From IMG/VR virus record IMGVR_UViG_3300007345_000327, positions 1 through 21,872 of that record: a DNA stretch of 21,872 nt, one strand, 5' to 3'. Both the position numbers and the translations under genes were made by a program. Positions 2,097 to 21,718 of the stretch are shown piece after piece; within the stretch, counting starts at the first letter, position 1, and each line of letters opens with the position of its first letter. Source of the DNA: a virus. Under the pieces are notes generated by a model. The model did not search any database. It worked only from the letters and a program-made list of their open reading frames with translations, and was not told the DNA's origin.

Positions 2097-2427
2097 GGCG
2101 GCGGCCTTGCCCGTCACGCATCTCAACACGTCCGGCCTCACGTGCAAGCAGAACCAAGTGCTTGTGCGCAAGATTGAAGTCAAGGATCGGACGGCCGGCG
2201 GTGTCTACATCCCGGAAATCACGAAAGAACGCGACGAACACGCAGCCGACGAAGGCCATCTGATCGATGCGTCCCCGGCTGCATTCAAGGATATCGGGCT
2301 GCCGGAAGTCGATCCTGGTTCGATGTGCATTTTCCCGCGATATGCCGGCAAGAACGTCAAAGGCAACGATGGCGTGAACTACGTGCTGCTCAACGACAAG
2401 GACATCTTGGCAGTGAGGGCCGAATAA
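2080..2427 (+). CDS. GroES-like co-chaperonin (Cpn10)
   Basis: A 115-residue protein whose residues 25-115 follow the GroES/Cpn10 pattern. NQVLVRKIEVKDRTAGGVYI corresponds to the first strand and the start of the GroEL-binding mobile loop, with V42-Y43-I44 where E. coli GroES has Ile-Val-Leu after the two glycines. DPGSMCIFPRYAG matches the VGDIVIF strand, and NYVLLNDKDILAV matches the C-terminal EVLIMSESDILAI strand. It has about 20 extra N-terminal residues and a longer segment (65-80) before the DPG turn. SD-like GAGG lies at 2067-2070. No GroEL gene is in the window, so it presumably works with host GroEL to fold capsid or portal subunits, as T4 gp31 does. Its place between portal and scaffold supports this. 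Confidence 0.9.
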   Translation: MQTVTKAAALPVTHLNTSGLTCKQNQVLVRKIEVKDRTAGGVYIPEITKERDEHAADEGHLIDASPAAFKDIGLPEVDPGSMCIFPRYAGKNVKGNDGVNYVLLNDKDILAVRAE

Positions 2428-3353
2428 TGGAACAAGAATTCCAGGAACACGAAGAGCCGGAAGCCGTCGAAGGCGTTGACGCTCTGCCGGTGGTCGAGGA
2501 TGAAGGTGGACAGCCTACCGAGGGCGGCGAACCGCAGCTTTCAACCGAAGAACGTGCCCGTGCACAAGGCTGGCGCCCTAAGGATGAATACAACGGCGAC
2601 CCGGATCGATGGGTTGATGCCCAAGCCTTCGTAAAGCGTGGCGAAGAAGAACTCCCCGTCGTCCGTGAGCGCAACCGGCATCTTGAAAGCCGGGTGACGG
2701 AACTCAATCAGAAGCTCGAACAGACCGCCAGCACCATTTCAAACATGGAACGCATGAACCGGGTGGCGGTTCAACGTGCCGTGCAGCGTGAGCGTGAGCA
2801 ACTGGCGCAGGAATACGGCCGCTTGAAAGAGCAGGCCGTTGAGTTCGGCGATGTTGACCAGTTCCGCAACCTGGAAATGCAGGAGCGCCAGCATCTCAGC
2901 CATTTCGACAGCCAGGTGGCGCAGGATTTTGCGCAACAGCAGCCACAGCAGGCGCCGGCCAACGTTTACGAGATGCCAGAAGTGCAAACGTGGGTGAATG
3001 AAAACCCATGGTTTGAGACTAACCGCGAAATGCACAATATGGCGGTCAGTGTTTCGCAGGCGATCGGCGGCGCAAACCCGTCCATGCCCATGGCTGACGT
3101 GCTGAAACAAACGGCGCAGCGTATGCGCGCGATTTACCCCGACAAGTTCGGGGGATCATCGCAGCCGCAGCGCCCATCAATGCCATCGGTGGAAGGTTCC
3201 GCGTCCCGTGGCGCCGCTGTTAGGCAGAGCACACGCGGTGCAGCACAATTGCCGCCGGAAGCACGCAAGCAGGGCCAGGAGTTCGTTAGTGATGGCCTGT
3301 TCAAGAACCTTGATGAATACGCTCGAAGCTATTTCGAGCAGGGGGACGCGTAG
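2427..3353 (+). CDS. Putative scaffolding protein
   Basis: A 308-residue protein (P22 scaffold is 303) between portal and capsid genes, where tailed phages keep the scaffold that directs procapsid assembly and then leaves. It has a strongly acidic N-terminus (residues 1-45), a conserved-looking segment at 44-70 (ARAQGWRPKDEYNGDPDRW) that I associate with podovirus scaffold-like proteins, a Glu/Gln/Arg-rich coiled coil at about 75-160, a Gln/Pro linker at 168-178 and a helical C-terminus. The start is ATG 2427 in the TAATG junction with the co-chaperonin; the frame is open upstream to 2325, but that extension lies inside the GroES gene and reads as unlike protein. Identity rests on composition and position. 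Confidence 0.75.
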   Translation: MEQEFQEHEEPEAVEGVDALPVVEDEGGQPTEGGEPQLSTEERARAQGWRPKDEYNGDPDRWVDAQAFVKRGEEELPVVRERNRHLESRVTELNQKLEQTASTISNMERMNRVAVQRAVQREREQLAQEYGRLKEQAVEFGDVDQFRNLEMQERQHLSHFDSQVAQDFAQQQPQQAPANVYEMPEVQTWVNENPWFETNREMHNMAVSVSQAIGGANPSMPMADVLKQTAQRMRAIYPDKFGGSSQPQRPSMPSVEGSASRGAAVRQSTRGAAQLPPEARKQGQEFVSDGLFKNLDEYARSYFEQGDA

Positions 3354-4540: not shown

Positions 4541-5122
4541 ATGGCAAACACTGACACGCCACGGGGCTTGAGTCCCGTGAGTGATATGTCTGGGGCGCCC
4601 TATAATGGGCCTCTCATGCGCTGTTACGTTCCCGCAACGGATTCGACGGCGATTTATCTCGGTGGACTGGTCAAGACGGCCGGATCGGGCGATGCAGGCG
4701 GCGTTATGAGCGTCACCGGCAACGTTTCGACCGGCGATGCTGTGCTTGGCGTTGTGACGAGCGTTGAACCTGTCACGCGCGAATCGACCATCTACCGGGC
4801 AGCCTCAACTGAACGTTACGTTTATGTGGCTTGTGATCCGAATGCACTGTTCGAAGTGCAGGAAGATTCCGGCGGCGCAGCTTTGGCGGTTACAGCGATC
4901 GGCAACTCGGCCGATCTGACCGGGTTCACCTCCGGCTCAACCGGCACGGGGCTTTCAGCTATCGAAATCGACAGCTCGACGGCAACTGCCTCTGGTGACG
5001 GGACTGAGGATGTCGTCATTCTCGGCTACGTGCAACGTGCTGACAATGAAGTCGGCGCGAACGCGAAACTATTGGTGCGTCTCAACAACCATTTCTTGGT
5101 TGACGCTCAAGCCGGCGCATAA
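4541..5122 (+). CDS. Putative head accessory/decoration protein
   Basis: A 193-residue acidic, Gly/Ser/Thr/Val-rich, beta-strand protein beginning MANTDTPRGLSPVSDMSGAP. From memory, this opening and the later YRAASTERYVYVACDPNALF segment are typical of a phage family encoded next to the capsid gene and treated as head accessory or decoration proteins. A weak CGGA at 4529-4532 serves as SD. The gene ends 12 bases before the capsid start. No enzyme motif is seen. It could instead be a second capsid-associated chaperone, but its composition argues for a virion component. Confidence 0.7.
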   Translation: MANTDTPRGLSPVSDMSGAPYNGPLMRCYVPATDSTAIYLGGLVKTAGSGDAGGVMSVTGNVSTGDAVLGVVTSVEPVTRESTIYRAASTERYVYVACDPNALFEVQEDSGGAALAVTAIGNSADLTGFTSGSTGTGLSAIEIDSSTATASGDGTEDVVILGYVQRADNEVGANAKLLVRLNNHFLVDAQAGA

Positions 5123-5134
5123 GGGGATAATGAT

Positions 5135-6046
5135 ATGGCTGGAACTATTACGACTGGCAATCATCCCGCCGCGCTTTGGCCGGGTGTGCACAAGTTTTGG
5201 GGGATGAGCTACGGCGAACACCCCAAAGAATGGGCGATGATCTTTGATGAATCGAAGTCATCGAAGAACTACGAAGAGGATGTCGAAACCACCAGCTTCG
5301 GCTTGGCTCCGGTAAAGAGCCAGGGCGGCGCGGTCAGTTACGACAGCCACCAGCAGGGCAACACAACGCGCTACACGCATGTTGTTTATGGTCTCGGCTG
5401 GATCGTCACCCGCGAAGAGCGGGAAGACAACCTCTACAAGACCAGCGCCTTCAAACGCACCAAAGCTTTGGCGTTTTCGATGCGCCAGACTGAAGAGGTG
5501 GTTGCGGCGAACGTGATCAACCGGGCCTTTAATTCGTCCTATGTCGGCGGCGATGCGAAGGAACTGATCGCAACTGATCACCCAACGCTTGATGGTACCC
5601 AATCCAATGAGATCGCCACAGCGGCGGACTTGTCGGAAGCAGCGCTTGAAAGCCTCGTGATCCAGATCGGTCAGGCGAAGAACTCGCGGGGCCTCCGTGT
5701 TGCGATCCAGCCTAAAAAGCTGATTGTGCCGGTTGACTTGCAATTTGAAGCGGAACGCATCCTGCGCTCTGAGCTTCAGGTTGGAACGGCCAACAACGAC
5801 GTTAACGCTATCAAGTCCATGGGCTTGTTCCAGGATGGCGTTGTCGTCAACCACTACCTGACCGACACGGACGCGTTCTTCATCAAAACAAATGCCCCGG
5901 ACGGACTGCGCCGGTTTACGCGGCGTGGCACCGACTTCACCCGCGACAATGATTTCGACACAGACAACGCCAAGGCGAAATCGACAATGCGGTTCTCTGT
6001 CGGCTGGACTGAATGGCGCGCCATCTATGGTTCACCAGGAGCTTGA
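5135..6046 (+). CDS. Major capsid protein (Mu gpT-like, HK97-fold expected)
   Basis: A 303-residue protein with the strongest SD of the head genes (AAGGGG, 5121-5126, overlapping the previous stop), as expected for the most abundant virion protein. Segments recalling the Mu gpT/major head subunit family, judged from memory, are TREEREDNLYKTSAFKRTKA with SMRQTEEVVAANVINRAF (helical spine), ELIATDHPTLDGTQSN, and the late RVAIQPKKLIVPVDLQFEAE with SELQVGTANNDVNAI. It is shorter than P22 coat protein (430 residues) and has no obvious I-domain-like insertion. Its place after the scaffold and before the gp4-like adaptor fits. The fold is inferred. Confidence 0.88.
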   Translation: MAGTITTGNHPAALWPGVHKFWGMSYGEHPKEWAMIFDESKSSKNYEEDVETTSFGLAPVKSQGGAVSYDSHQQGNTTRYTHVVYGLGWIVTREEREDNLYKTSAFKRTKALAFSMRQTEEVVAANVINRAFNSSYVGGDAKELIATDHPTLDGTQSNEIATAADLSEAALESLVIQIGQAKNSRGLRVAIQPKKLIVPVDLQFEAERILRSELQVGTANNDVNAIKSMGLFQDGVVVNHYLTDTDAFFIKTNAPDGLRRFTRRGTDFTRDNDFDTDNAKAKSTMRFSVGWTEWRAIYGSPGA

Positions 6047-9392: not shown

Positions 9393-9907
9393 TTTACGCC
9401 AAAGTAGTGAACGGCGAGATCGTTTCACGTGAAACGAAGATCGCGCCAACATCGACCATAGCTTCAGATGGTGGCCCAACCTGGCGCCCGATCGAGGCTG
9501 ATGGCCAGCCGAATTATGATGTTGCAACGCAAAATCTCGTGCGTAGCGAAACGATCGAGGTGGATCGAGTTTTTATTGCATGGACGATTGAGGAGAAATC
9601 GCTTGACGCTGCGAAGGCAACGCGGATCGACGCAATCAATGCAGATGCCGGGGCGCGGATATTGTCAATCATGCCGGAATATAAGCAGCGCAACGCTTTA
9701 GCGCTTGGCTTGGAAATGGCTACGACCTATGGCGCGGACCCGGCAGGATGGCCGAGTGCCGAACAATCCATTTATGCATCTGCATCAGCCGCATGGGCGC
9801 TCATCAAGAGTATTCGAGATGCGAGCAACCAAGCGGCTGCTTTGATCAATGCAGCCCAATCAAATGAAGAGGTGCGTGCGGTAATTGTGGTGTGGCCGGA
9901 TGCTTAA
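9389..9907 (+). CDS. Putative fibre-associated or fibre-assembly protein
   Basis: A 172-residue protein. Residues 1-65 (MIYAKVVNGEIVSRETKIAP...) look like the short beta N-terminus of tail fibre assembly or cap proteins. Residues 70-172 are helical, with a SLDAAKATRIDAINADAGAR helix and the segment MPEYKQRNALALGLEM. Coupled to the upstream gene by ATGA and overlapping the glycine-rich gene by 8 bases. The domain layout (short beta part, then helices with an x-x-R-I-x-x-I pattern) loosely resembles the 18493-19044 protein; the two may play the same role for two different appendages. Confidence 0.65.
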   Translation: MIYAKVVNGEIVSRETKIAPTSTIASDGGPTWRPIEADGQPNYDVATQNLVRSETIEVDRVFIAWTIEEKSLDAAKATRIDAINADAGARILSIMPEYKQRNALALGLEMATTYGADPAGWPSAEQSIYASASAAWALIKSIRDASNQAAALINAAQSNEEVRAVIVVWPDA

Positions 9908-10853
9908 AATAAGCAATCTTATTGGATTTGCAGTTGGTGGTGGTAATTCTACGGTATTAGACATCACTTATGCTGATGATTCAACTGGAACGCATGACCT
10001 TGCGACAGGGCCGCTAGTGTTGGCCTATCAGGCGGATAAAGTGCACAGGGTTACGCCGCGCTCTTCTATTGTTGTTGATGTTGAGTTGTGGGGCGGCGGC
10101 GGCGGGTCAGCAGAAGGCCGGGGCGGTGCGGCTGCAAAGGTCGATTTTTCTGATTATACAATGGTGGGTGGAACGGAGTACGCCATAGCAGTTGGCGAAG
10201 GAGGCCAAAATGGCACGGACACAAATCTTGCCGGGGGATGGCCGGATGGTGGCGCTCATCAGGGCGTTACATATAACGGTGAAGACAGGGGTTCAGGCGG
10301 GGGATCGTCTCGGTTTGCGGTAACATCTTCCCTCGTAAGCAGTGGCACAACAACTGCGAATCTCAATGATGCTAGTAGCACTTACTTGGCTATTGCCGGT
10401 GCAGGTGGCGGCGGGCCATCGCGAGGCGGATCAGCAGCAGCAGTCGCAGGCGAAGGCGGTGCAATAACCGGCGTTGCCGGTGGGACGTATGTTAGCCTAG
10501 ACGGTGGCGGCGGTGGAGGCACGCAGTCTGCTGGCGGCGCTGGCGGCGTTGGCCGTACTGGAACGGGCGGGTCTGGCGCCAAATATGCCGGCGGGGATAG
10601 TCAATCTGCGAGCGATAATGCCGCTGGGACAGGCGGCGGCGGTTATTATGGTGGCGGTTCTGGCGGCGGTTATTATGGTGCTGGTGGAGGCGGTAGTTCA
10701 TTTTTGGATGGGTCTCTGACAGGCAACAAAACAAGTGGGTCGGGACTAAATGCACCGTCAGGACAACCTGCAGGATATCCAAACGCGGGCGATGCAGTAT
10801 CTGGTGCAAATGCCGGCGAGAATGGCGTCGTAACAATTACGTTGGCATCTTGA
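9900..10853 (+). CDS. Glycine-rich adhesin-like protein
   Basis: A 317-residue protein with 87 glycines (27%). After a 55-residue beta N-terminus, the pattern VELWGGGGGS, then YAIAVGEGGQNG, YLAIAGAGGGG and long Gly/Ser/Ala stretches to GVVTITLAS resembles the glycine-rich domain found in ALK-type receptors, many bacterial surface proteins and T4-type gp38 adhesins. Start: ATG 9900, inside the end of the preceding gene; the frame opens at TTG 9885 but there is no reason to prefer it. It is probably a host-recognition tip or appendage protein lying on the virion. The family call is from pattern, not from alignment. Confidence 0.72.
   Translation: MLKISNLIGFAVGGGNSTVLDITYADDSTGTHDLATGPLVLAYQADKVHRVTPRSSIVVDVELWGGGGGSAEGRGGAAAKVDFSDYTMVGGTEYAIAVGEGGQNGTDTNLAGGWPDGGAHQGVTYNGEDRGSGGGSSRFAVTSSLVSSGTTTANLNDASSTYLAIAGAGGGGPSRGGSAAAVAGEGGAITGVAGGTYVSLDGGGGGGTQSAGGAGGVGRTGTGGSGAKYAGGDSQSASDNAAGTGGGGYYGGGSGGGYYGAGGGGSSFLDGSLTGNKTSGSGLNAPSGQPAGYPNAGDAVSGANAGENGVVTITLAS
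10635..10680 (+). repeat. 19-bp direct repeat in glycine-rich gene
   Basis: The 19-base sequence ggcggcggttattatggtg occurs exactly at 10635-10653 and 10662-10680, offset by 27 bases (9 codons, Gly-Gly-Gly-Tyr-Tyr-Gly units). In-frame spacing means slippage here would lengthen or shorten the protein by 9 residues without breaking it. Confidence 0.9.
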
Positions 10854-12612: not shown

Positions 12613-12722
12613 TGCCAACACCATTGCCGCCGCTTCCCCAGTTGGAAAACATCCCACCGGAGCTTTTGCAATGGCTCCGAACGGTCGAGGCAATCATTCG
12701 TGAATTGCAGGAGGGTAGCTGA
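12612..12722 (+). CDS. 36-residue microprotein, Pro-rich then helical
   Basis: A short reading frame starting ATG 12612 in a TGATG junction with the upstream stop and ending TGATG with the next start. An SD-like GAGG at 12603-12606 stands 5 bases before it. The peptide is Pro-rich at the N-terminus (MPTPLPPLPQLENIPPELL) followed by an amphipathic helix WLRTVEAIIRELQEGS. It fills the gap between two genes exactly, and it also carries the strong SD (AGGAGGG, 12709-12715) of the next gene. Either a real small virion or assembly peptide or a leader that couples translation; I favour a real gene at moderate confidence. Confidence 0.6.
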   Translation: MPTPLPPLPQLENIPPELLQWLRTVEAIIRELQEGS

Positions 12723-13381
12723 TGAGCTTCTGGGGTGAATTCACAGGTAGCTGGCAGCGCGGCAAAATCCGGGATGCTGGTGCCGCTCAGGTGGCCGGAT
12801 ACAATAACGGCATTCAGTCCATCAACGACCATAGCAGCAGCGCTAAAAACTATCTGACGCCATACCAGAACCGTGGCGATGCGGCTTACCGGCAATACAC
12901 CGATGCGCTCGGCGTCAATGGTCAAGACGCTCAGCAAAGCTATTGGAACACGTATCAGGCAGACCCGCAACGCGGCTATGATGAAGACAGAGCCGTTGAC
13001 GCTGCACAAAGGCGTGCGTCGTCAATGGGCCTTGGCAATAGCGGTTTTGCCGCTAAGGCCAGACATCGAGTTGGGATGGAAGCCGGCCGGTCATACACCA
13101 TGGATCGGCTTAACAGGTTGCAGGGCCTTGGCGCGCAAGGTTTAGGCGTTGCCAATCAGCTTTCCAATATCGACATGAACACCGGCCAGCAGCTTGCCAA
13201 TCTATACACGGGAAGGGGCAATGCGGAGGCGGGTTCACTCATAGGGCAGGCCGGCACTGGAAACACTGCGTTTAACAATGGGCTGGCGATCGGCGGAACG
13301 CTGATAAGCGGCTTCACACCCGGAAAAAGTAAAACGTCACCGTTCGGCAACATGCTCACCGGCATGAATTTCTTGGGATGA
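12722..13381 (+). CDS. Putative DNA ejection protein, P22 gp7 position
   Basis: A 219-residue protein (P22 gp7 is 229) right after the hub region. It has the pattern I recall for podovirus internal/DNA transfer proteins: QVAGYNNGIQSINDH, then NYLTPYQNRGDAAYRQYTDAL, WNTYQADPQRGYDEDR, and RRASSMGLGNSGFAAKARHR, the last with the typical 'short loop of Gly-Asn-Ser-Gly'. It is Gln/Ala/Gly-rich with a Gly-rich hydrophobic C-terminus (AFNNGLAIGGTLISGF). Such proteins are packaged in the head and injected first with DNA. Strong SD AGGAGGG at 12709-12715. Confidence 0.72.
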   Translation: MSFWGEFTGSWQRGKIRDAGAAQVAGYNNGIQSINDHSSSAKNYLTPYQNRGDAAYRQYTDALGVNGQDAQQSYWNTYQADPQRGYDEDRAVDAAQRRASSMGLGNSGFAAKARHRVGMEAGRSYTMDRLNRLQGLGAQGLGVANQLSNIDMNTGQQLANLYTGRGNAEAGSLIGQAGTGNTAFNNGLAIGGTLISGFTPGKSKTSPFGNMLTGMNFLG

Positions 13382-13385
13382 TCTG

Positions 13386-14348
13386 ATGGTCAACTATTTG
13401 CTTCCGCAAAGTGCGCTAAGGATCAACACGGCGCCGATGACGAACGCGCTTAACCAGTATCGCCAAGGCATGAACCAGCAGTTCGACGCTGAGAGGCAGG
13501 CGGACTGGCGCAAAGAAGACATGGACTGGCGTCAAGCACAGGCCAACAAGGCAGAAGCGAACAGCCTCAGAGACTACAATCTGAGAGCGCAGCAGTTTGA
13601 CTTTCAAAGGCAGAAAGCATCGCAAGGACCGGCGCGGCCTTGGTGGGCTGGTCCACAGGGTCAAATCGATCCTGCAATGGCGCGCTATAGGGAGCTAGGC
13701 AGGCCCACAACTAACGTGAATGTGGGTGCAGGTGAAACGGCTTACGACAAAAAACTTGCTGAGAACAATGCAAAGCTGTTTATAGAAAGTCAGAAATCCG
13801 GGGCAACTGCGCAGCGTGATTTGAACAATCTGCGCGTGATGCGCAGTGCAATGTCAGATCCAAACCTTTACACGGGCACGGGCGGGAACACCGTGCTGTC
13901 GCTAAAGAAGGCGGCGCAAACACTCTTTGGTGTTCCCGTGGCCGGCGTGTCGTCCGGCGAAGTGGTGCAAAATCTTGCCAAGGGGATTGCGGTCTCGCTC
14001 AAGGATAATCTGGAGGGGCCTATGTCTGATTCCGACAGGCGGTTCTTGGTCGAGATGGCGCCCGGTCTGGCAAATTCACCGGACGGCAACAGGCAGATCA
14101 TTGCGCTCGGTATGCTCCAAAAAGAATACCAGATTGCAAAGTCGAAAGCGATTAGAGAATATGCGCGCCAGAACCGTGGCCGGATCGATGCGAATGTCTA
14201 TCAAGCACTCGGTGAGGTTGATCAAAGATTTGCGCAGCAGTTCTCCGGCTTGATCGCTCAGCTTCGCGCAGCCGGTGAAGAACCGCCTCGATCGCCCACT
14301 GCTGGCGTTCCGATCGGCGCGCTTCGCAGCCAGTACGGGCTTGAATGA
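13386..14348 (+). CDS. Putative DNA ejection protein, P22 gp20 position
   Basis: A 320-residue protein following the gp7-like gene, with a GGGA SD in 13374-13379. Residues 20-80 are a Gln/Arg/Ala-rich helix (RQADWRKEDMDWRQAQANKA), typical of ejected internal proteins. Residues 150-270 contain GGNTVLSLKKAAQTLFGVPV and then GPMSDSDRRFLVEMAPGLAN with SPDGNRQIIALGML, a motif I recall from several podovirus virion proteins. The C-terminal 30 residues are Pro/Ala-rich. Shorter than P22 gp20 (471); identity rests on position and composition. Confidence 0.65.
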   Translation: MVNYLLPQSALRINTAPMTNALNQYRQGMNQQFDAERQADWRKEDMDWRQAQANKAEANSLRDYNLRAQQFDFQRQKASQGPARPWWAGPQGQIDPAMARYRELGRPTTNVNVGAGETAYDKKLAENNAKLFIESQKSGATAQRDLNNLRVMRSAMSDPNLYTGTGGNTVLSLKKAAQTLFGVPVAGVSSGEVVQNLAKGIAVSLKDNLEGPMSDSDRRFLVEMAPGLANSPDGNRQIIALGMLQKEYQIAKSKAIREYARQNRGRIDANVYQALGEVDQRFAQQFSGLIAQLRAAGEEPPRSPTAGVPIGALRSQYGLE

Positions 14349-16735
14349 TGGCTGATTTCGAGAAGATCGACAGAAACCTGAAACGCATGTTCCAGGCTAA
14401 GGCGCCTGATGAGCATGTGTCAGCCTATCTTGCTTCGGAAGGGGTTACGGCCGAGCAGGTGTCGCAATGGAAGCAGCAACCTAAAACGGCATATGAGGAA
14501 TATGTAAAGCCGGTTGTTGATAGCGCTGCGGGAATGGCGCAAAGCGCCTATACGGCAGTGGCCGGCAAGCATGATCCAAAATTCAAGGGCTTGCCAAGCA
14601 TCGAGGATGCATCAGGCATAATCGATCCTTACGCAGAAATGTCAGGGGCCAATGATGCCGGATATGGTGATATCTATCAGAAGTCTCTCGGCGACAGGTT
14701 TATGCGCCGCTTCAAGGATGCCAACGGCTATGAAATCATTGAGTTTCGCGGCCAAGATGGCAAGCCACAGCAAGCCTATGTTAATCAACCCGGTCTCGAT
14801 AGCAAGGATGTAAACCGGGCGATCGGATCGGCGCTGCCTTACATGGCAACGGCGTATGGTGTCGGTAAGGTGGCCGGCGGCCTTGGCACGGTGGGCAACA
14901 TGGTTGCGCAAGGCGTTGGCGCAGCCGGCACGAGCGTTGCGCAGGATATCGCGGCCCAAAGTCTTGGTTCCAAACAGCCGCTTGATACGACCCGCGCGGC
15001 GGTGTCCGGCGCGCTCGGTGCGGGTGGCGAATTGCTCGGCCGTGTGGCCGGTCCGTTCATCCGCCGAATGATTGGCGATCGTTCTCTGGTCACGCCGGAT
15101 GGAAAGCTGACGCCACGCGGGAAAGCGTTGCTCGAAAAGAACGGCATCGATCCAAATTTGGTCGATACCGAGCTGGCCAAGGAATTTAAGCGGCAAGCCA
15201 CAAACGCGCTAGACCCGGCGGAAGCTCTGGTTAAATCGCAGACCGATCGGTTCGGCATCCCGACAACCAAGGGGCAGCGCACGAACGATCCGCAGATGCT
15301 CTTGATTGAAAAGGACATTCGCGCTGGTACGCTTGGCCCGCAGGCGAAAGAGAGCCTGCGCAATCTGGATGATGCGCAGAAAGCCGCGATTGACCGGGCC
15401 GCAAGAGGCGAAGCCGGCGGCGATGCTGGAGCCAACGTGATCGCGCCGAGACTTGCGCCGAGGCGCGGCGTGCAAGATCAGGGCGGTGACGTTCTCGGGG
15501 CTGGCGTCAAGCAAGGTTTCGACGCGGCCAAGAGCCGGATTAGTGCGATTGAGAATGAAGCGTGGAAAAAGGCGGAAAATATTGCGCCGCGATCGGGCGC
15601 ATTAGATACATTACCCGACTTCGTGCGGAAGGCGTTAGGGCCTCGGCGTGTCGATATTCCGCCACCGGGTTCATCGCAGCCATCAGAGACGCCGGCCGCG
15701 CTCTCTATGGCGCGTGAGTTGGACGCTTACATAAAGGGGCGTGCTGGTATTAACCCGGAAGCTCCAGAGATACTTGGTCAACAGTCTATTCGTTATATCG
15801 ACGAAATGCGCAAACGGCTTATGTCCATGAAGGATGGCGCGAAAACCTCTACAGACGCGGGGGCCGCCAAGGCGATATACCAGGCATTCGACGACTGGAT
15901 GGTTGACGCGGCCGAAAAAAATCTTCTGACAGGATCGCCGGGCGCTGCTCAAGCGGTCCTTAATGCCAGGCGCACGACGGCTGAACTTAGGAGCATTTTG
16001 CAGCCGCGATTGAACGGCAAGAAAACACCAGCAGCCCGCATACTTGAAAAGGTTGGTGATGCGCAGACGGGCGAGGAGGCATTAAAGGCACTGCTTGGCG
16101 CAGCCGGCCCCAAGGCATCGCTTCCGGCCGGGGCGGTCGATGCCGTGAAACGGTACAAGGCAGCAGCCACGCAGCTCGGCGGAAAAGCAGGCAAAGATGC
16201 ATGGAACGATGTTCGTTTGGCCCATTGGCTGAAACTGGTGGTTGGCAAAAACGGTCAAATGCTGCCAAATCAAACGCTGATCACATCGGTTGAAACGGCC
16301 TTTGCCAATCAACGCAGCTTGATGAATGTGCTTTATAGTAAAAATGAGCAGACATTGATGCGCCAACTCGCGCAGGCACTCAAAAGCGCAACGCCGAAAG
16401 ACCCGAACCCGCCCGGATCTGGGACGGCGGTGCGCAGTCTGTTCCCGCAAATGGTGCAAGATACATTGAAAGCACAACAGCAGCGCTACACGTTCGGATC
16501 AAAGGGCCAACGCCACAAAGTATTGATTGCCAGGATATACCGGGCGCTGGCCAAGGTGGTGCCGCCAATGCTGGAGAAGAATTTCGGCGGCGCAACCGCG
16601 TCGAAAGTCACGACGCAGGCGTTGACGCCAAAAGCACCAAGTCTTGCGGGCTACGCTTCCGCGTTCTCTCCAGCCGCAACGACAGATCGGACAGCGGACT
16701 TTGCCGCGCCTCCGAATTCCCTCACGAGACGGTGA
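14345..16735 (+). CDS. Large DNA ejection / internal virion protein, P22 gp16 position
   Basis: A 796-residue protein, third in the ejection set (P22 gp16 is 609). Residues 158-208 and 213-238 are Gly/Ala-rich, weakly hydrophobic stretches (GSALPYMATAYGVGKVAGGL) that could enter a membrane during ejection; the rest is helical and Lys/Ala-rich. No transglycosylase Glu-Ser motif or other lysozyme signature was found by eye. The start is ATG 14345, overlapping the upstream stop as ATGA, with a second ATG at 14348. The 3' end overlaps the reverse membrane gene tail to tail by 14 bases. Function inferred from position and size. Confidence 0.7.
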   Translation: MMADFEKIDRNLKRMFQAKAPDEHVSAYLASEGVTAEQVSQWKQQPKTAYEEYVKPVVDSAAGMAQSAYTAVAGKHDPKFKGLPSIEDASGIIDPYAEMSGANDAGYGDIYQKSLGDRFMRRFKDANGYEIIEFRGQDGKPQQAYVNQPGLDSKDVNRAIGSALPYMATAYGVGKVAGGLGTVGNMVAQGVGAAGTSVAQDIAAQSLGSKQPLDTTRAAVSGALGAGGELLGRVAGPFIRRMIGDRSLVTPDGKLTPRGKALLEKNGIDPNLVDTELAKEFKRQATNALDPAEALVKSQTDRFGIPTTKGQRTNDPQMLLIEKDIRAGTLGPQAKESLRNLDDAQKAAIDRAARGEAGGDAGANVIAPRLAPRRGVQDQGGDVLGAGVKQGFDAAKSRISAIENEAWKKAENIAPRSGALDTLPDFVRKALGPRRVDIPPPGSSQPSETPAALSMARELDAYIKGRAGINPEAPEILGQQSIRYIDEMRKRLMSMKDGAKTSTDAGAAKAIYQAFDDWMVDAAEKNLLTGSPGAAQAVLNARRTTAELRSILQPRLNGKKTPAARILEKVGDAQTGEEALKALLGAAGPKASLPAGAVDAVKRYKAAATQLGGKAGKDAWNDVRLAHWLKLVVGKNGQMLPNQTLITSVETAFANQRSLMNVLYSKNEQTLMRQLAQALKSATPKDPNPPGSGTAVRSLFPQMVQDTLKAQQQRYTFGSKGQRHKVLIARIYRALAKVVPPMLEKNFGGATASKVTTQALTPKAPSLAGYASAFSPAATTDRTADFAAPPNSLTRR

Positions 16736-17045
16736 TGGCTGCCAAAATAGCAATCAACCCACTGGCAACCAATGGCGAAAGACAATAGAGGTTGCTCCAT
16801 TCGTCTTGTTGTATGTTGTGCCATGTGTGTCGGAGTTCTATGACCTTATGAACAGCCATGCCGGGAACGAGAACAATCTGCCAGCATAGCGCGTATTTGG
16901 CCCATTCTGGTTGCCTGTAGAGAAGTGCAAGCAAGGCCGCCGCAGTTGTTAGTCCCCATAGCATCAGAACCAACAAAGCACAGTTGATCGCCTTGCGGCG
17001 GAATGCTTTGGGTTTGTGCAAGTCGATGGCGTTTGCGTTTGTCAT
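16722..17045 (-). CDS. Reverse-strand three-helix membrane protein, sieA-like position
   Basis: A 107-residue inner-membrane protein on the minus strand, the only likely gene so oriented. The ATG is at 17045-17043 with a good SD (GAGG, 8 bases before it, read from 17057-17054). The frame is also open to a Met at 17087, but that would reach within 3 bases of the next gene's start and bypass the SD. Three helices are visible at about residues 19-42 (INCALLVLMLWGLTTAAALL), 50-68 and 86-106, with a basic N-terminus. By hand count 16741-17040 has 151 G/C in 300 bases (50%) against 64% for 14761-15060, suggesting separate origin. Not recognised; a superinfection-exclusion or other host-altering (moron) role is inferred from place and orientation. 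Confidence 0.72.
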   Translation of the reverse strand: MTNANAIDLHKPKAFRRKAINCALLVLMLWGLTTAAALLALLYRQPEWAKYALCWQIVLVPGMAVHKVIELRHTWHNIQQDEWSNLYCLSPLVASGLIAILAAITVS

Positions 17046-17089
17046 AAATTCAGCCTCGTCCGCTTGTAGCGGCAATATGAGGAGCAAAT
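17046..17089. promoter_or_regulatory. Divergent 44-bp intergenic region
   Basis: This is the only divergent start pair in the window: the reverse membrane gene leaves leftward at 17045 and the tail fibre gene leaves rightward at 17090 (SD GAGGAG, 17079-17084). It holds a short perfect hairpin at 17060-17072 (ccgct-tgt-agcgg). The reverse gene must have its own promoter at or just beyond this region, possibly inside the start of the fibre gene. I could not point to convincing -35/-10 boxes. Confidence 0.4.
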
Positions 17090-18493
17090 ATGCCCGATAG
17101 CAGACTCATCTTCAAGCCCGGCTTTCGCGTCACCGACGAGAACGGAACGCCGCAGAGCGGGGCAACGCTGGAGTTCTACGACGCGGGCACATCCAACACC
17201 CGCGCGGTCTACACAGACAGTAGCCTAAGCACATCAGCAGGCTCAACCGTCACGTGTGATGCGGGCGGCTATCCAACCGTCTCTGATGTCAAGGCTTTGC
17301 TCTACACCGGCACAACGGCTTATAAGATCATCGCCAAGAAGTCGGACGCCACCACACTGTGGTCTCACGATAACATCCTCGGCGCGCTCGACACTTCGAC
17401 TTTTTTAACCGGCAATGTCACGGCGGAAGCGCCGATTGTTGCAACGTCCAGCGATTCAACTCTCACGACAGCCGACAAGGGTAAGCTCTACAACGTCGAT
17501 TGTTCCGGCGCGACGGTGACGATTACACTGCTATCTGCGGTTACGGCAACGGATGGTTTCCCGATCGGTATCCGGCACAATGGCACGGCAAACCAGGTTG
17601 TCATTCGCACGGTTTCGAGCCAGACCATCAAAAGCGCGTACAGCAGCACACATTTTGCGCTGCGATCGTTTGGTGAAGTTGTGTGGATCACATCGGACGG
17701 TGCCGGCTGGAACGTTTCAAGCTATGTGCCGCCGTTTCTCACGCGCGACATATCAATCTTTCGGGTCACTGACCGGCGCACCTCGCCGCCAACTTCGCCC
17801 GTGGTTGGTGAGCGCTACATTGTTGTCGGAACGCCAACCGGCGCATGGTCATCTTATGCAGAACATGACGTGCTCGAATATGATGGGCTTTCGAGCTACA
17901 TCCAATACACTCCGACTGCTGACTGCGGATGGATTGCCTACGTCATCGATGAAGATATCAATGTGCAGTTCCAGGCAAGTGCTTGGACGAACATCGACAC
18001 CGATGATAATGATTATTTAGTCATTTCAGAAGTGGTTGCGTCCGCAGCATCAGAGGTTGAGTTTACCGGCCTTAGCACCGACTATGAAAGCTACAAGATT
18101 TTTGCGAACAACTTCACGCCATCAACTGACAACGTATCATTGGAGGTGGAGTTCTCAAGCGATGGCGGCGGAAGCTATATCACAGCAGATTACGGTTATA
18201 CATATCAGACACTAGCTTCTAGCGGTCAATCTGCAAGCGCATCGCAAATCAACATTGCAGATGGCGTGTATGATAACACGCCAAGCAGTTTTGAATTAAC
18301 GCTGATTGATCCTACAACGGCAGCACCAACAACACTGTTCGGTGTAGGCTCAATACGTCGGGCTTCGTATAACGAAGCGATACCGTTTTCTGGAATACTG
18401 ACTACCTCAACGGCGATTGACGCCATGCGGTTCACTCTGAGTTCTGGCACGATCACTGGCACATTCACGATCTACGGCATCAAGGGGGCGTGA
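17090..18493 (+). CDS. Tail fibre / host receptor-binding protein
   Basis: A 467-residue three-part fibre. Residues 1-100 resemble a particle-binding N-terminus of the 'F-x-x-G-x-x-x-x-G-x-x-x-Y-x-x-G-T ... YTDS' type (SGATLEFYDAGTSNTRAVYT). Residues about 225-302 match the DUF2793 pattern (SPPTSPVVGERYIVVGTPTG, W, then CGWIAYVIDED ... W). Residues 320-467 form a beta-rich tip (TDYESYKIFANNFTPSTDN, LEVEFSSDGG) that I recall at the C-terminus of many alphaproteobacterial phage fibres. SD GAGGAG at 17079-17084. It occupies the P22 tailspike position after the ejection genes. No depolymerase or intramolecular-chaperone motif is evident. Confidence 0.82.
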   Translation: MPDSRLIFKPGFRVTDENGTPQSGATLEFYDAGTSNTRAVYTDSSLSTSAGSTVTCDAGGYPTVSDVKALLYTGTTAYKIIAKKSDATTLWSHDNILGALDTSTFLTGNVTAEAPIVATSSDSTLTTADKGKLYNVDCSGATVTITLLSAVTATDGFPIGIRHNGTANQVVIRTVSSQTIKSAYSSTHFALRSFGEVVWITSDGAGWNVSSYVPPFLTRDISIFRVTDRRTSPPTSPVVGERYIVVGTPTGAWSSYAEHDVLEYDGLSSYIQYTPTADCGWIAYVIDEDINVQFQASAWTNIDTDDNDYLVISEVVASAASEVEFTGLSTDYESYKIFANNFTPSTDNVSLEVEFSSDGGGSYITADYGYTYQTLASSGQSASASQINIADGVYDNTPSSFELTLIDPTTAAPTTLFGVGSIRRASYNEAIPFSGILTTSTAIDAMRFTLSSGTITGTFTIYGIKGA

Positions 18494-19044
18494 TGCATAC
18501 CAAGGTTGTAATCGACCTAAAAACACGCACTGTCAAAACGGTGCGCATGTACCCGGTTCTTGATGGTGGTGATACCGTTGTTGATATGGTGCCCGATCCT
18601 GATCAAGTGCTGCCCGCCGGCCGAAAAATGGGAAGTCCTGATCATGCCAGCGTGAAAATTGGGGATCACTGGGATGGGGCGCGGTATGTCCGTCAAGCCA
18701 CAAGGGAACAAATCAATCGCGAGCGAGACAGGCGATTAGATGGTGGCGTGGTGCATGGTGGTGTAGAGTTCCAATCAGACGAAGCGAGCCGGGCAGCGAT
18801 AGCCAAGAAGACGACGCTTGCACTTGGTTTGATGGCGGTCGGAAAGCAGGGCGACACATTCACTTGGATTTCTGCAAACAACAGCCAGATCACAATGACA
18901 GCAACGGAATTTTATGATTTCGGCGATGCCGTCGATACATACGAAGAGAACATCCGATTTGTAGCGCGTAAGCTCAAAGACTCAAGCCCGATTCCGGGGG
19001 ATTACGCCGATGATAAATACTGGCCGAGCCGAACGCTCGACTAA
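18493..19044 (+). CDS. DUF4376-like fibre-associated protein
   Basis: A 183-residue protein after the fibre gene. Residues about 70-170 follow the DUF4376 pattern: EQINRERDRRLDGGVVHGGV, then FQSDEASRAAIAKKTTLALG, TWISANNSQITMTATEFYDF and a closing ENIRFVARKLKD helix. The N-terminus is a short beta region. Such proteins lie next to phage fibre genes and may help fibre assembly. Start: ATG 18493 in TGATG, with GGGGG at 18484-18488; GTG 18490 is in frame one codon before. Confidence 0.75.
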   Translation: MHTKVVIDLKTRTVKTVRMYPVLDGGDTVVDMVPDPDQVLPAGRKMGSPDHASVKIGDHWDGARYVRQATREQINRERDRRLDGGVVHGGVEFQSDEASRAAIAKKTTLALGLMAVGKQGDTFTWISANNSQITMTATEFYDFGDAVDTYEENIRFVARKLKDSSPIPGDYADDKYWPSRTLD

Positions 19045-19506: not shown

Positions 19507-20559
19507 ATGGCCAGATCGTCGATCAATGCGAGCCATCTGTCTCTGACAGCTATCGCATACATCATCGCTGGTTGCTCTGCGGTTCTGACGGGTATCTTTG
19601 GCTCGACGTTCGGCGGCGAAAGTTGGGTGCTGTCTGCGATATGTTTTCTGATGTTCTTCTGCATCTCATTGCTCTCGCCTCTTCTTTTCAACGCTCTTAC
19701 TAAATCAGTATTGCAGCAGAACTGGGGAAAGATCGCGGTTTTTTTCTTGTTCGGATTGTTTTTCTTCGCAACCGACGTGATTACGAATGCTGGCACGGTG
19801 GCTCTGTTCCGCAAGGCCGATCTTGTGCGCACGGATAACCAGAACGACAAGGCCAAGAACGCACGCAATGAAGTCTCGCGCATCGAGAAGGACATGGCGA
19901 CGATCAAGGCAACGGTCGCATGGAAAGGCGTCTACATTGGCGAAAGTGGCACGCGCTACCCGCTGACCGATCCAACCGCGTTCGATGAGCAAATCAGGTT
20001 GCAGGAAAAACTCGTGAGCCAAGAAGCGGCGCGGGTTGAGTGCGGCCCAAAATGCGAAGAACGCCAGCGCAAGTTGAAAGAGCTACTGGCGGCACGGGCA
20101 AACGCAGTTGAACGCACCGGCCTGCAGAACCAATATCGCACGCTTGATATTGAATTGAAAGAATCCAAAGCCGCAGCTGCGGAAACGCCGACGCAAGCCT
20201 CAGCCGCACTTGAGCACGCGCGCAATGTTGCGGCAGCCTTCACCTTGCAGATCGAGCCTGACAAGAAATCGCGGTTCTGGGCGAACTACGGCCTCAGTGC
20301 CTGGGGTGGGATTGCAACGTCATTGGCGTCGATCGCTGCCGCCATTTTGCTTGCTGCATCGACAGTAGGCGGCTGGCGTCGTCATCAAGAATACGAACCG
20401 GCGCCAGAAGCTCGCAATCCGTACCTGGAAGACATGCGGCCAGAGGTTGCTGGCGGAAACTTGTCTCATACGTTTGTATTGCAGGAGGGTGATGGTCTGG
20501 AGGCCGTGCGTATAGCTCTACGGCGATTGGCTGAGCGCAATCAAAAGGTCTCAGCATGA
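19507..20559 (+). CDS. Four-helix membrane protein with long coiled coil
   Basis: A 350-residue protein with a good SD (AAAGGA, 19495-19500). Membrane helices are visible at about residues 12-33, 40-63, 75-98 and 265-287; residues 105-240 between helices 3 and 4 are charged coiled coil with a Cys pair (ECGPKCEE, C179/C183). The soluble C-terminus (290-350) is probably on the same side as the N-terminus. The layout (three helices, coiled coil, one helix) loosely recalls DUF4407-type proteins, but I am not sure of that. Standing directly before the amidase and coupled to it by ATGA, it could be a holin-like or lysis-control protein, though it is unusually large for a holin. Confidence 0.72.
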   Translation: MARSSINASHLSLTAIAYIIAGCSAVLTGIFGSTFGGESWVLSAICFLMFFCISLLSPLLFNALTKSVLQQNWGKIAVFFLFGLFFFATDVITNAGTVALFRKADLVRTDNQNDKAKNARNEVSRIEKDMATIKATVAWKGVYIGESGTRYPLTDPTAFDEQIRLQEKLVSQEAARVECGPKCEERQRKLKELLAARANAVERTGLQNQYRTLDIELKESKAAAAETPTQASAALEHARNVAAAFTLQIEPDKKSRFWANYGLSAWGGIATSLASIAAAILLAASTVGGWRRHQEYEPAPEARNPYLEDMRPEVAGGNLSHTFVLQEGDGLEAVRIALRRLAERNQKVSA

Positions 20560-21461
20560 AGATCATTGATCACAAGTTAGGCGGCGCCCGCTACGATCAA
20601 ACCGCACACATTGGCGATGTCATCGCCCCGACGCTGATTGTCGTGCACGGCACCGGCACGCGGATTGATAAGGGCTCGGCTGTTGACTACTGCAAAAAGA
20701 ACGCGCGCAAGGTCGCATATCACATCATCATTGAGAGAGACGGCGAGGTTGTGCAATTGGCGCCGCTCAATCGCCGTGTGAACCATGCCGGCCGGTCAAG
20801 CTGGAAGGGCCGCCAGTGGTGCAACAGTTTCTCGATCTCGATCGGGCTTGTTGATCCAGGCAAATTGAAGGGCACGCCAAATAAGGCGATGGCGTTTTAT
20901 CGCGAGTGGTTTACCGAGTTCGACGGATTGCAGGCCAAAGACACGCCACACCATGGCCGGGGCCACATCTGGCTACCCTACACGCCAGAACAGCACGCCG
21001 CGATCAATGAGGTTGTGGCGGCGATAAAGGCCGCATATCCCGGCATTGACATTGCAGGCCACTACCAAATCTCGCCAGGCCGCAAGATCGATCCAACGCC
21101 ATTGATTGACATTGCAGCGCTGGGCGGCACGGCACCGACGCTCGATGAAGGCATGGCGGTTGCGGTTGAATCCACACACAAGACGCTGGCCAAGAAATCA
21201 CGGGAATACAAATCGACCAATATCCTTGGCAGCTTGATGGCGGGGGGCGCGGTTAGCACGTCCGTTTTGGAGGCGGTCAGCATTTCGAACATCCAAGCCA
21301 CAAAAACCTATCTGGACGTGTTTACGGGCTTCGTCAAGGCATACAGCGCACCTGTCGTGATTGGCGCGTGCGTGTTCGGCTGGCTGGTCTGCGAAGCCAT
21401 TAAACATTGGAAGCGTGAGAGCTATGAGGCCGGCAACTATGTGCCGTCAGGTGATACATGA
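20556..21461 (+). CDS. N-acetylmuramoyl-L-alanine amidase endolysin with C-terminal membrane segment
   Basis: A 301-residue lysin that should cut the amide bond between MurNAc and the peptide stem. Residues 1-182 fit the Amidase_2/T7 lysozyme-type fold: H31 in LIVVHGTGT (first zinc ligand), Y55-H56 in VAYHIIIERDGEV, H77 in VNHAG, an ISIGLV strand, and GHYQISPGRKIDP giving H169 and D179 as the other ligands. After residue 205 comes a linker, then hydrophobic segments at about 222-245 (amphipathic) and 262-284 (SAPVVIGACVFGWLVCEAI, transmembrane). No N-terminal signal peptide is seen. SD AAAAGG at 20543-20548. The C-terminal membrane helix is an unusual addition that may anchor the enzyme or act in release. 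Confidence 0.88.
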   Translation: MKIIDHKLGGARYDQTAHIGDVIAPTLIVVHGTGTRIDKGSAVDYCKKNARKVAYHIIIERDGEVVQLAPLNRRVNHAGRSSWKGRQWCNSFSISIGLVDPGKLKGTPNKAMAFYREWFTEFDGLQAKDTPHHGRGHIWLPYTPEQHAAINEVVAAIKAAYPGIDIAGHYQISPGRKIDPTPLIDIAALGGTAPTLDEGMAVAVESTHKTLAKKSREYKSTNILGSLMAGGAVSTSVLEAVSISNIQATKTYLDVFTGFVKAYSAPVVIGACVFGWLVCEAIKHWKRESYEAGNYVPSGDT

Positions 21462-21718
21462 TCTGGGCACTATTCAGGGCCGTAACGGGCTCATTCATGG
21501 GGCGTATGGTGGCTGTCGGTCTAGCTGCCCTTGCTGCGCTCGGCATTAACAATGTCTACCAGCGTTCGATAGGCGGAAAGCAAGCCATCGCAAAGGTCAT
21601 TAAAAAATCGAACGAGGTTGCAAAAGCACGCAATGAGAAGGTCCGCAAAATTCGCCGCAATATCAGCCCTAGCACTGCTTGGAAGCGGCTGCGCACAGAA
21701 TATGCCAACACTGATTGA
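21458..21718 (+). CDS. Inner-membrane spanin-like protein (Rz-type)
   Basis: An 86-residue protein coupled to the amidase by ATGA. One N-terminal membrane helix at about residues 16-34 (MVAVGLAALAALGINNVYQR) is followed by a strongly basic, helical periplasmic part (residues 40-80). This is the layout of an i-spanin, though shorter than lambda Rz (153 residues). Together with the overlapping lipoprotein gene it would join inner and outer membranes at lysis. Alternatively a small pinholin-type membrane protein; the gene overlap argues for a spanin. Confidence 0.68.
   Translation: MIWALFRAVTGSFMGRMVAVGLAALAALGINNVYQRSIGGKQAIAKVIKKSNEVAKARNEKVRKIRRNISPSTAWKRLRTEYANTD

Follow-up and report, generated by a model that had tools for sequence, protein, structure and literature searches.

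A small reverse-strand membrane gene behind the third ejection protein gene of a virus, a candidate analogue of P22 sieA

Among the late genes of the virus record analysed here (the window, the whole stretch of 21,872 bases), one small gene runs backwards between the third ejection protein gene (ejC) and a tail fibre gene, which raises the question of what a predicted membrane protein does at this place and in this orientation. The original prediction had described a lone minus-strand gene with its own Shine-Dalgarno sequence and three membrane helices in exactly this slot, and had likened it to the superinfection exclusion gene sieA of phage P22. The gene, its possible ribosome-binding site and its predicted helices are confirmed by the features below, as is its place, from PHROG matches.

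12722-13381, plus strand: first ejection protein gene (ejA), matching phrog_598 'DNA ejection' (E 3.9e-13)
13386-14348, plus strand: second ejection protein candidate, by position between ejA and ejC; conserved in the sibling L004
14345-16735, plus strand: third ejection protein gene (ejC), 796 aa, by position behind the PHROG 'DNA ejection' gene and from relatives
16722-17045, minus strand: reverse gene, 107 aa, with an ATG start, a basic N-terminus and three predicted transmembrane helices
17046-17089, no strand: 44-bp spacer separating the start of the reverse gene from that of the tail fibre gene, the two being divergent
17054-17057, minus strand: GAGG, possible Shine-Dalgarno sequence of the reverse gene, 8 nt before its ATG
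17060-17072, no strand: CCGCTTGTAGCGG, an inverted repeat of 5 bp within the spacer, identical in the sibling
17090-18493, plus strand: tail fibre-like gene, with a PHROG tail fibre match

The reverse gene and its neighbourhood

The helices of the product are predicted by AlphaFold at about residues 12-42, 46-75 and 82-106, with hydropathy windows at residues 23, 53 and 88; its location in the membrane is thus a predicted one. The gene converges with ejC, overlapping it by 14 bp at the stop end, and the GAGG ahead of it is identical in the sibling virus L004. Scans of the spacer for a sigma-70-like promoter gave nothing above chance.

L004 and L005 are two IMG/VR contigs with one common sequence, about 85% identical to the window in DNA, and have the reverse gene in the same position (protein identity 96% for L004). 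That the gene is genuine and strongly constrained by purifying selection follows from its comparison with L004, which shows few amino-acid changes and mostly third-position differences: 24 of the 324 bases differ, 19 of them at third codon positions of its frame, and 20 of the changes are synonymous against four non-synonymous (dN/dS 0.049). The same 24 changes placed randomly gave a mean of 15.5 amino-acid changes, and four or fewer in none of 20,000 trials. Between the same two viruses, dN/dS is 0.069 for ejC and 0.076 for the second ejection gene.

The original prediction had also set a low G+C of the gene (50%) against a high one of the ejection gene (64%). The former value holds (50.6%), while the latter is 57.4% for ejC, with 56.1% for the whole window, so that the contrast was overstated; its direction recurs in the relatives, where the G+C of the reverse gene is below that of ejC in 16 of 16 cases. 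As hydrophobic codons are T-rich, low G+C alone is no proof of foreign origin. The gene scores poorly under the phage's own codon-usage model, and since this score failed on the window gene itself, it was not used for excluding ORFs.

No worthwhile match to the protein was obtained in Pfam, PADLOC, PHROG or NCBIfam; in particular, it is matched by no PADLOC model of the known anti-phage defence families and by no holin family of Pfam, PHROG or NCBIfam. An NCBIfam ABC permease match (18.9 bits against the 120 needed) and a PHROG match at E 0.17 were treated as noise. Searches by tblastn against 50,697 phage and 72,556 plasmid records and a scan of genome contigs with the protein found no match, and Foldseek comparisons of both structural models with BFVD, and of the second also with PDB, returned nothing below E 1.

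On its other side, the reverse gene adjoins a receptor-binding module. The tail fibre gene keeps its N-terminal part in the sibling and diverges in its C-terminal part, and the next gene (18490-19044) is also divergent. Further differences from the sibling lie elsewhere in the window. A glycine-rich, ALK_LTK_GRD-like gene located between tail genes (9885-10853) has a partly similar counterpart in L004 (11499-12458) between a four-helix gene and an amidase, and seems to be one gene that has moved. The endolysin region (20556-21479) is 95.8% identical to the sibling in DNA against about 81-86% for most of the shared genome, which suggests a recent exchange of this region. Proteins of 350-400 aa with four predicted helices, the last of them preceded by a long soluble stretch, are encoded in the window (19507-20559) and in the relatives L017 (3529-4737) and L020 (243-1310), on the late-gene strand in the window and L017, and on the reverse-gene strand, upstream of the reverse gene, in L020. 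Endolysins with a single C-terminal transmembrane helix are encoded by the window (20556-21461, an amidase) and by L009, L010, L030, L040, L044 and L058; whether or not the phage has the reverse gene, no separate holin was visible close to these endolysins.

Recurrence at the ejC stop and sequence families

A total of 28 distinct ejC loci with a readable downstream junction were compared, including the window; 27 of them are in the ejC tree, and the other is a prophage of the genome G579. These relatives were gathered by ejC profile searches, which in 385 class-level and 398 phylum-level genomes yielded essentially one further prophage, that of G579. Most are fragments of uncultured viruses, their helices were predicted by hydropathy and some of their start codons are uncertain; the MAG contigs C112 and C244, which carry L017 and L020, are possibly stray viral contigs in the bin.

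At 24 of the 28 loci, ejC is faced by a convergent small membrane ORF on the minus strand, for which one to three helices are predicted. The stop of this ORF is no more than about 75 bp from that of ejC, mostly 3-20 bp away, and at most loci between -20 and +2 bp relative to it. Where the gap behind ejC is at least 100 bp, a membrane ORF stops between -35 and +40 at 20 of 22 loci, whereas 2.3 would be expected from first-order Markov shuffles of the same gaps; the remaining two (L030, -76, and L053, -44) have such an ORF slightly further into ejC. As a control on the same contigs and under the same length limit, a minus-strand membrane ORF was found at 18 of 25 ejC ends against 15 of 195 other plus-gene ends (Fisher 2.7e-12), and gapped plus-plus junctions elsewhere in these contigs have one in 2 of 31 cases. 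The reverse gene is missing in MW202785, L010, L056 and L058, where the gaps between ejC and the fibre gene are 13-57 bp. Some of the short ORFs found at single loci, mainly those of family C described below, could be due to chance; the whole pattern is not. A chance or shadow ORF, for which the poor codon-usage score of the window gene might speak, is refuted by its dN/dS with 19 of 24 changes in third positions and by this recurrence far above shuffles and controls, and we give it practically no credence.

The reverse proteins fall into at least five sequence families. Family A (L017, L020 and L031) comprises proteins of 102-134 aa with about three helices that are related by sequence (BLASTP E 1e-8 for L017 with L020 and 2e-5 for L017 with L031). 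Family B (six loci, 57-73 aa, two helices) has a visible motif, FVFT...GxWLxWxRE..RW...W.YRP, and its close pair L037/L038 has a non-synonymous to synonymous ratio of 0.14. Family C (six loci) consists of proteins of 36-47 aa with one helix and often VKxxKxG. The others are L032/L033 with one helix, L061, L045, and the G579 protein with its counterpart in Phage CBW1004C-Prop1, while the reverse cassettes of L030 and L060 encode proteins of one or two helices together with a lipoprotein. The window protein is probably a member of family A, although the link is weak: it scores 14.5 bits against the profile of L017, L020 and L031, a score reached by 5 of 1000 hydropathy-preserving shuffles, and the pairwise E is 0.012. 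Adding the family A alignment raised the AlphaFold confidence of the window model from 60 to 80, which is only suggestive because that alignment included L045, which the profile does not support. L045 had been placed in family A by eye and was removed after the HMM test.

The original prediction had proposed that the locus may be a hotspot for host-altering genes, an idea that varied reverse-strand small membrane genes in related phages would support. Comparison of the interval across relatives, as had been suggested, found such genes, with at least five families among the 24 loci, but a general swap site is not what the ejC tree indicates. Families B and C each occupy one side of one branch, and all family labels together require 9 changes on the tree against 17.9 in shuffles. 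The families thus follow the ejC clades, each of which keeps its own kind of membrane gene, so that the locus behind ejC is not a site of fast cargo exchange, and the reverse gene is better described as a stable, fast-diverging partner of ejC than as random cargo. Sequence turnover within one ejC clade can be fast, judging from L017 and L020, which share 74% in the C-terminal part of ejC and 28% in the reverse protein. The window and L004 stand apart from the other members of family A on the ejC tree, so that family A may be old, may have moved, or may owe the resemblance to convergence.

As neither an integrase nor a repressor was seen in the window fragment, a temperate life is deduced from the relatives, at least ten of which carry integrases: an integrase is present in 8 of 23 partial records and in MW202785, and a recombinase-like ORF in L017. 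In L017, a ParA-like gene (2402-3250) and a tyrosine recombinase-like gene (4706-5689) directly follow the reverse gene, and this element may be a plasmid-like prophage. L065 (G579 C15, 172000-191000) is a prophage in a chromosome and apparently a remnant: besides its three ejection genes it has an integrase-like gene and, in reverse orientation, a membrane operon of two genes; few other virion genes were seen, and host-like genes lie close behind.

The G579 reverse protein matches gp54 of Phage CBW1004C-Prop1 (MZ188970) by sequence alone (tblastn E 4e-4). The gene of gp54 is reverse-oriented and stands ahead of the tail fibre gene, at 4 bp from the third gene of a cluster whose first member is a 'DNA transfer protein p32'; its neighbour on the reverse strand is a 'putative exported protein'. 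The same layout is therefore present in an annotated phage record: in CBW1004C-Prop1 as in the window, a gene for a small membrane protein runs backwards between the third ejection-cluster gene and the tail fibre gene. Unlike the window protein, gp54 has two helices, and it is akin to the G579 protein, with no detectable kinship to that of the window.

Candidate functions of the reverse gene

We propose that the window gene encodes a SieA-like inner-membrane exclusion protein, analogous and not homologous to P22 SieA, a reading to which we give close to, though not quite, an even chance. Under this proposal, the reverse gene would be transcribed on its own from the minus strand at times of late-gene silence, in the prophage or in early infection, and its product would sit in the host inner membrane, interfere with the ejection-protein conduit of incoming related phages and thereby keep out their DNA. 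An ejection protein as the target would explain why the gene is kept beside ejC and diverges with it. Expression in the lysogen, inner-membrane location, contact with the conduit and exclusion itself are all inferred here. In favour of exclusion, we count the conservation in the sibling, the recurrence at the ejC stop, the tracking of ejC clades, the integrases in relatives, the matching layout in CBW1004C-Prop1, the layout of P22 sieA and a lipoprotein in L060, which is encoded on the minus strand of the reverse cassette, 185-562 bp behind the ejC stop, and has a weak match, at E 4.5e-4 among a batch of ten proteins, to phrog_1119 'Cor superinfection exclusion protein'. Against it, we count the absence of SieA similarity, of a PADLOC match, of a promoter above chance and of an integrase or repressor in the window fragment, the small size of the family C proteins, and the weakness of the link to family A, whose other members the ejC tree sets apart from the window.

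Other functions would fit parts of these observations. The reverse gene could be a prophage-expressed envelope gene, a moron serving for instance receptor masking, adhesion or a conjugation block, with ejection proteins not its target. The lipoprotein or exported-protein partners in L030, L033, L060 and CBW1004C-Prop1 agree with this, as does the action on a receptor of Cor, which the L060 lipoprotein weakly matches (PMC11436027), but the fixed place at the ejC stop and the co-inheritance with ejC would then be needless, and we consider such a role unlikely. Near-universality could also suit a function in the lytic cycle, in which the product would be a partner of ejC, either as a membrane chaperone or as an immunity protein sparing the membrane of the producer cell from new ejection protein. 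Its tracking of ejC clades and its overlap with ejC would be natural for such a partner; however, strong late transcription would run antisense to a gene on the opposite strand, and the gene is missing in four relatives with intact ejC, which makes this account unlikely to much the same degree, if slightly more so.

A holin or antiholin, timing lysis from the other strand, would accord with a small membrane protein of one to three helices, with the lack of a separate holin near the endolysins of the phages examined, and with a single-helix reverse-strand protein of Bcep22-like phages that was once named a putative antiholin (PMC9144972), a reading that the authors of the JC1 study doubt (PMC9144972). 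The reverse gene is, however, on the strand opposite to the endolysin and spanin-like genes, the latter being located elsewhere in the window and in L030, and L009, L010 and L058, all lacking the reverse gene, encode the same type of endolysin with a C-terminal helix and show no visible substitute. The single Pfam holin match is weak and below the cut-off (E 0.025) and belongs to P0008, a member of an unrelated family; altogether, a role in lysis appears rather improbable. Still less credible, to a point where we give it hardly any weight, is a type I toxin-antitoxin pair with the reverse gene encoding its small hydrophobic toxin, which the family C members of 36-47 aa with one helix would resemble; the window protein has three helices, strong amino-acid constraint and no PADLOC match.

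Returning to the proposed exclusion function, we offer a broader and more doubtful conjecture for a large, mostly uncultured group of short-tailed phages. The reverse genes behind ejC may constitute a class of membrane locks that is near-universal and has gone unrecognised, with one kind per ejection-protein clade, each shutting out DNA that arrives through that type of conduit, and comprising at least five families of one to three helices. Position at this junction also offers a simple rule by which to find candidate exclusion genes that escape searches by sequence.

Comparison with known exclusion systems

Membrane proteins reported to block DNA injection likewise include HK97 gp15, TP-J34 Ltp and the Tuc2009 exclusion protein, which act on long-tailed phages and are likened here by description. 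Cor, a lipoprotein known from phi80 and N15, acts on FhuA, a receptor (PMC11436027), and has its weak match in the lipoprotein of the L060 reverse cassette, whereas the window has no such lipoprotein adjoining the reverse gene. In layout, the window gene may be compared with the Bcep22-like phages (JC1 gp70), in which a conserved reverse-strand gene pair ends the virion module and gp70, of debated function, has one predicted helix (PMC9144972). The gp70 gene lies behind a DarB-like gene and before the lysis module, unlike the window gene.

The closest parallel is P22 SieA, an inner-membrane protein with three predicted helices (PMC10883804). The original analogy with sieA is upheld in position, orientation and helix number: both genes occupy the slot between the last ejection gene and a tail gene (the tailspike gene in P22, the tail fibre-like gene in the window), antisense to the late genes, a likeness of position only, and P22 SieA (type A) and the window protein are alike in having three predicted helices. 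P22 sieA is convergent 22 bp behind gene 16, while the window gene overlaps ejC by 14 bp. The two products differ in length (162-164 aa for SieA, 107 aa for the window protein), and the family C reverse proteins, which go down to 36 aa with one helix, are unlike SieA. The expectation that the product would be unrelated to SieA in sequence was correct as far as type A is concerned (BLASTP E 0.86, hhalign probability 0.4%, HMM 0.8 bits), and the cytoplasmic motif of SieA, FxRYPxEAxxFNK, is absent from the translation of the window gene. We do not assign the window protein to the SieA family, since it failed the tests of both sequence and motif. SieA types A-C are themselves about 25% identical to each other, and all known sieA genes have been described from enterobacterial P22-like phages and prophages (PMC10883804). 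Carried by 22 of 66 P22-like phages (PMC10883804), sieA occurs in only part of its phage group, as do genes of the window type, found at 24 of 28 ejC loci.

Leavitt et al. described P22 SieA, with escape mutations that map to C-terminal regions of both gp16 and gp20, as the sole system under study to which a block of injection by short-tailed phages is ascribed, and found it hard to understand how SieA remains in contact with such diverse ejection proteins (PMC10883804). The relatives gathered here offer natural pairs, each made up of an ejection-protein clade and the small membrane protein that accompanies it in a constant position, through which this question of contact becomes open to partner swapping.
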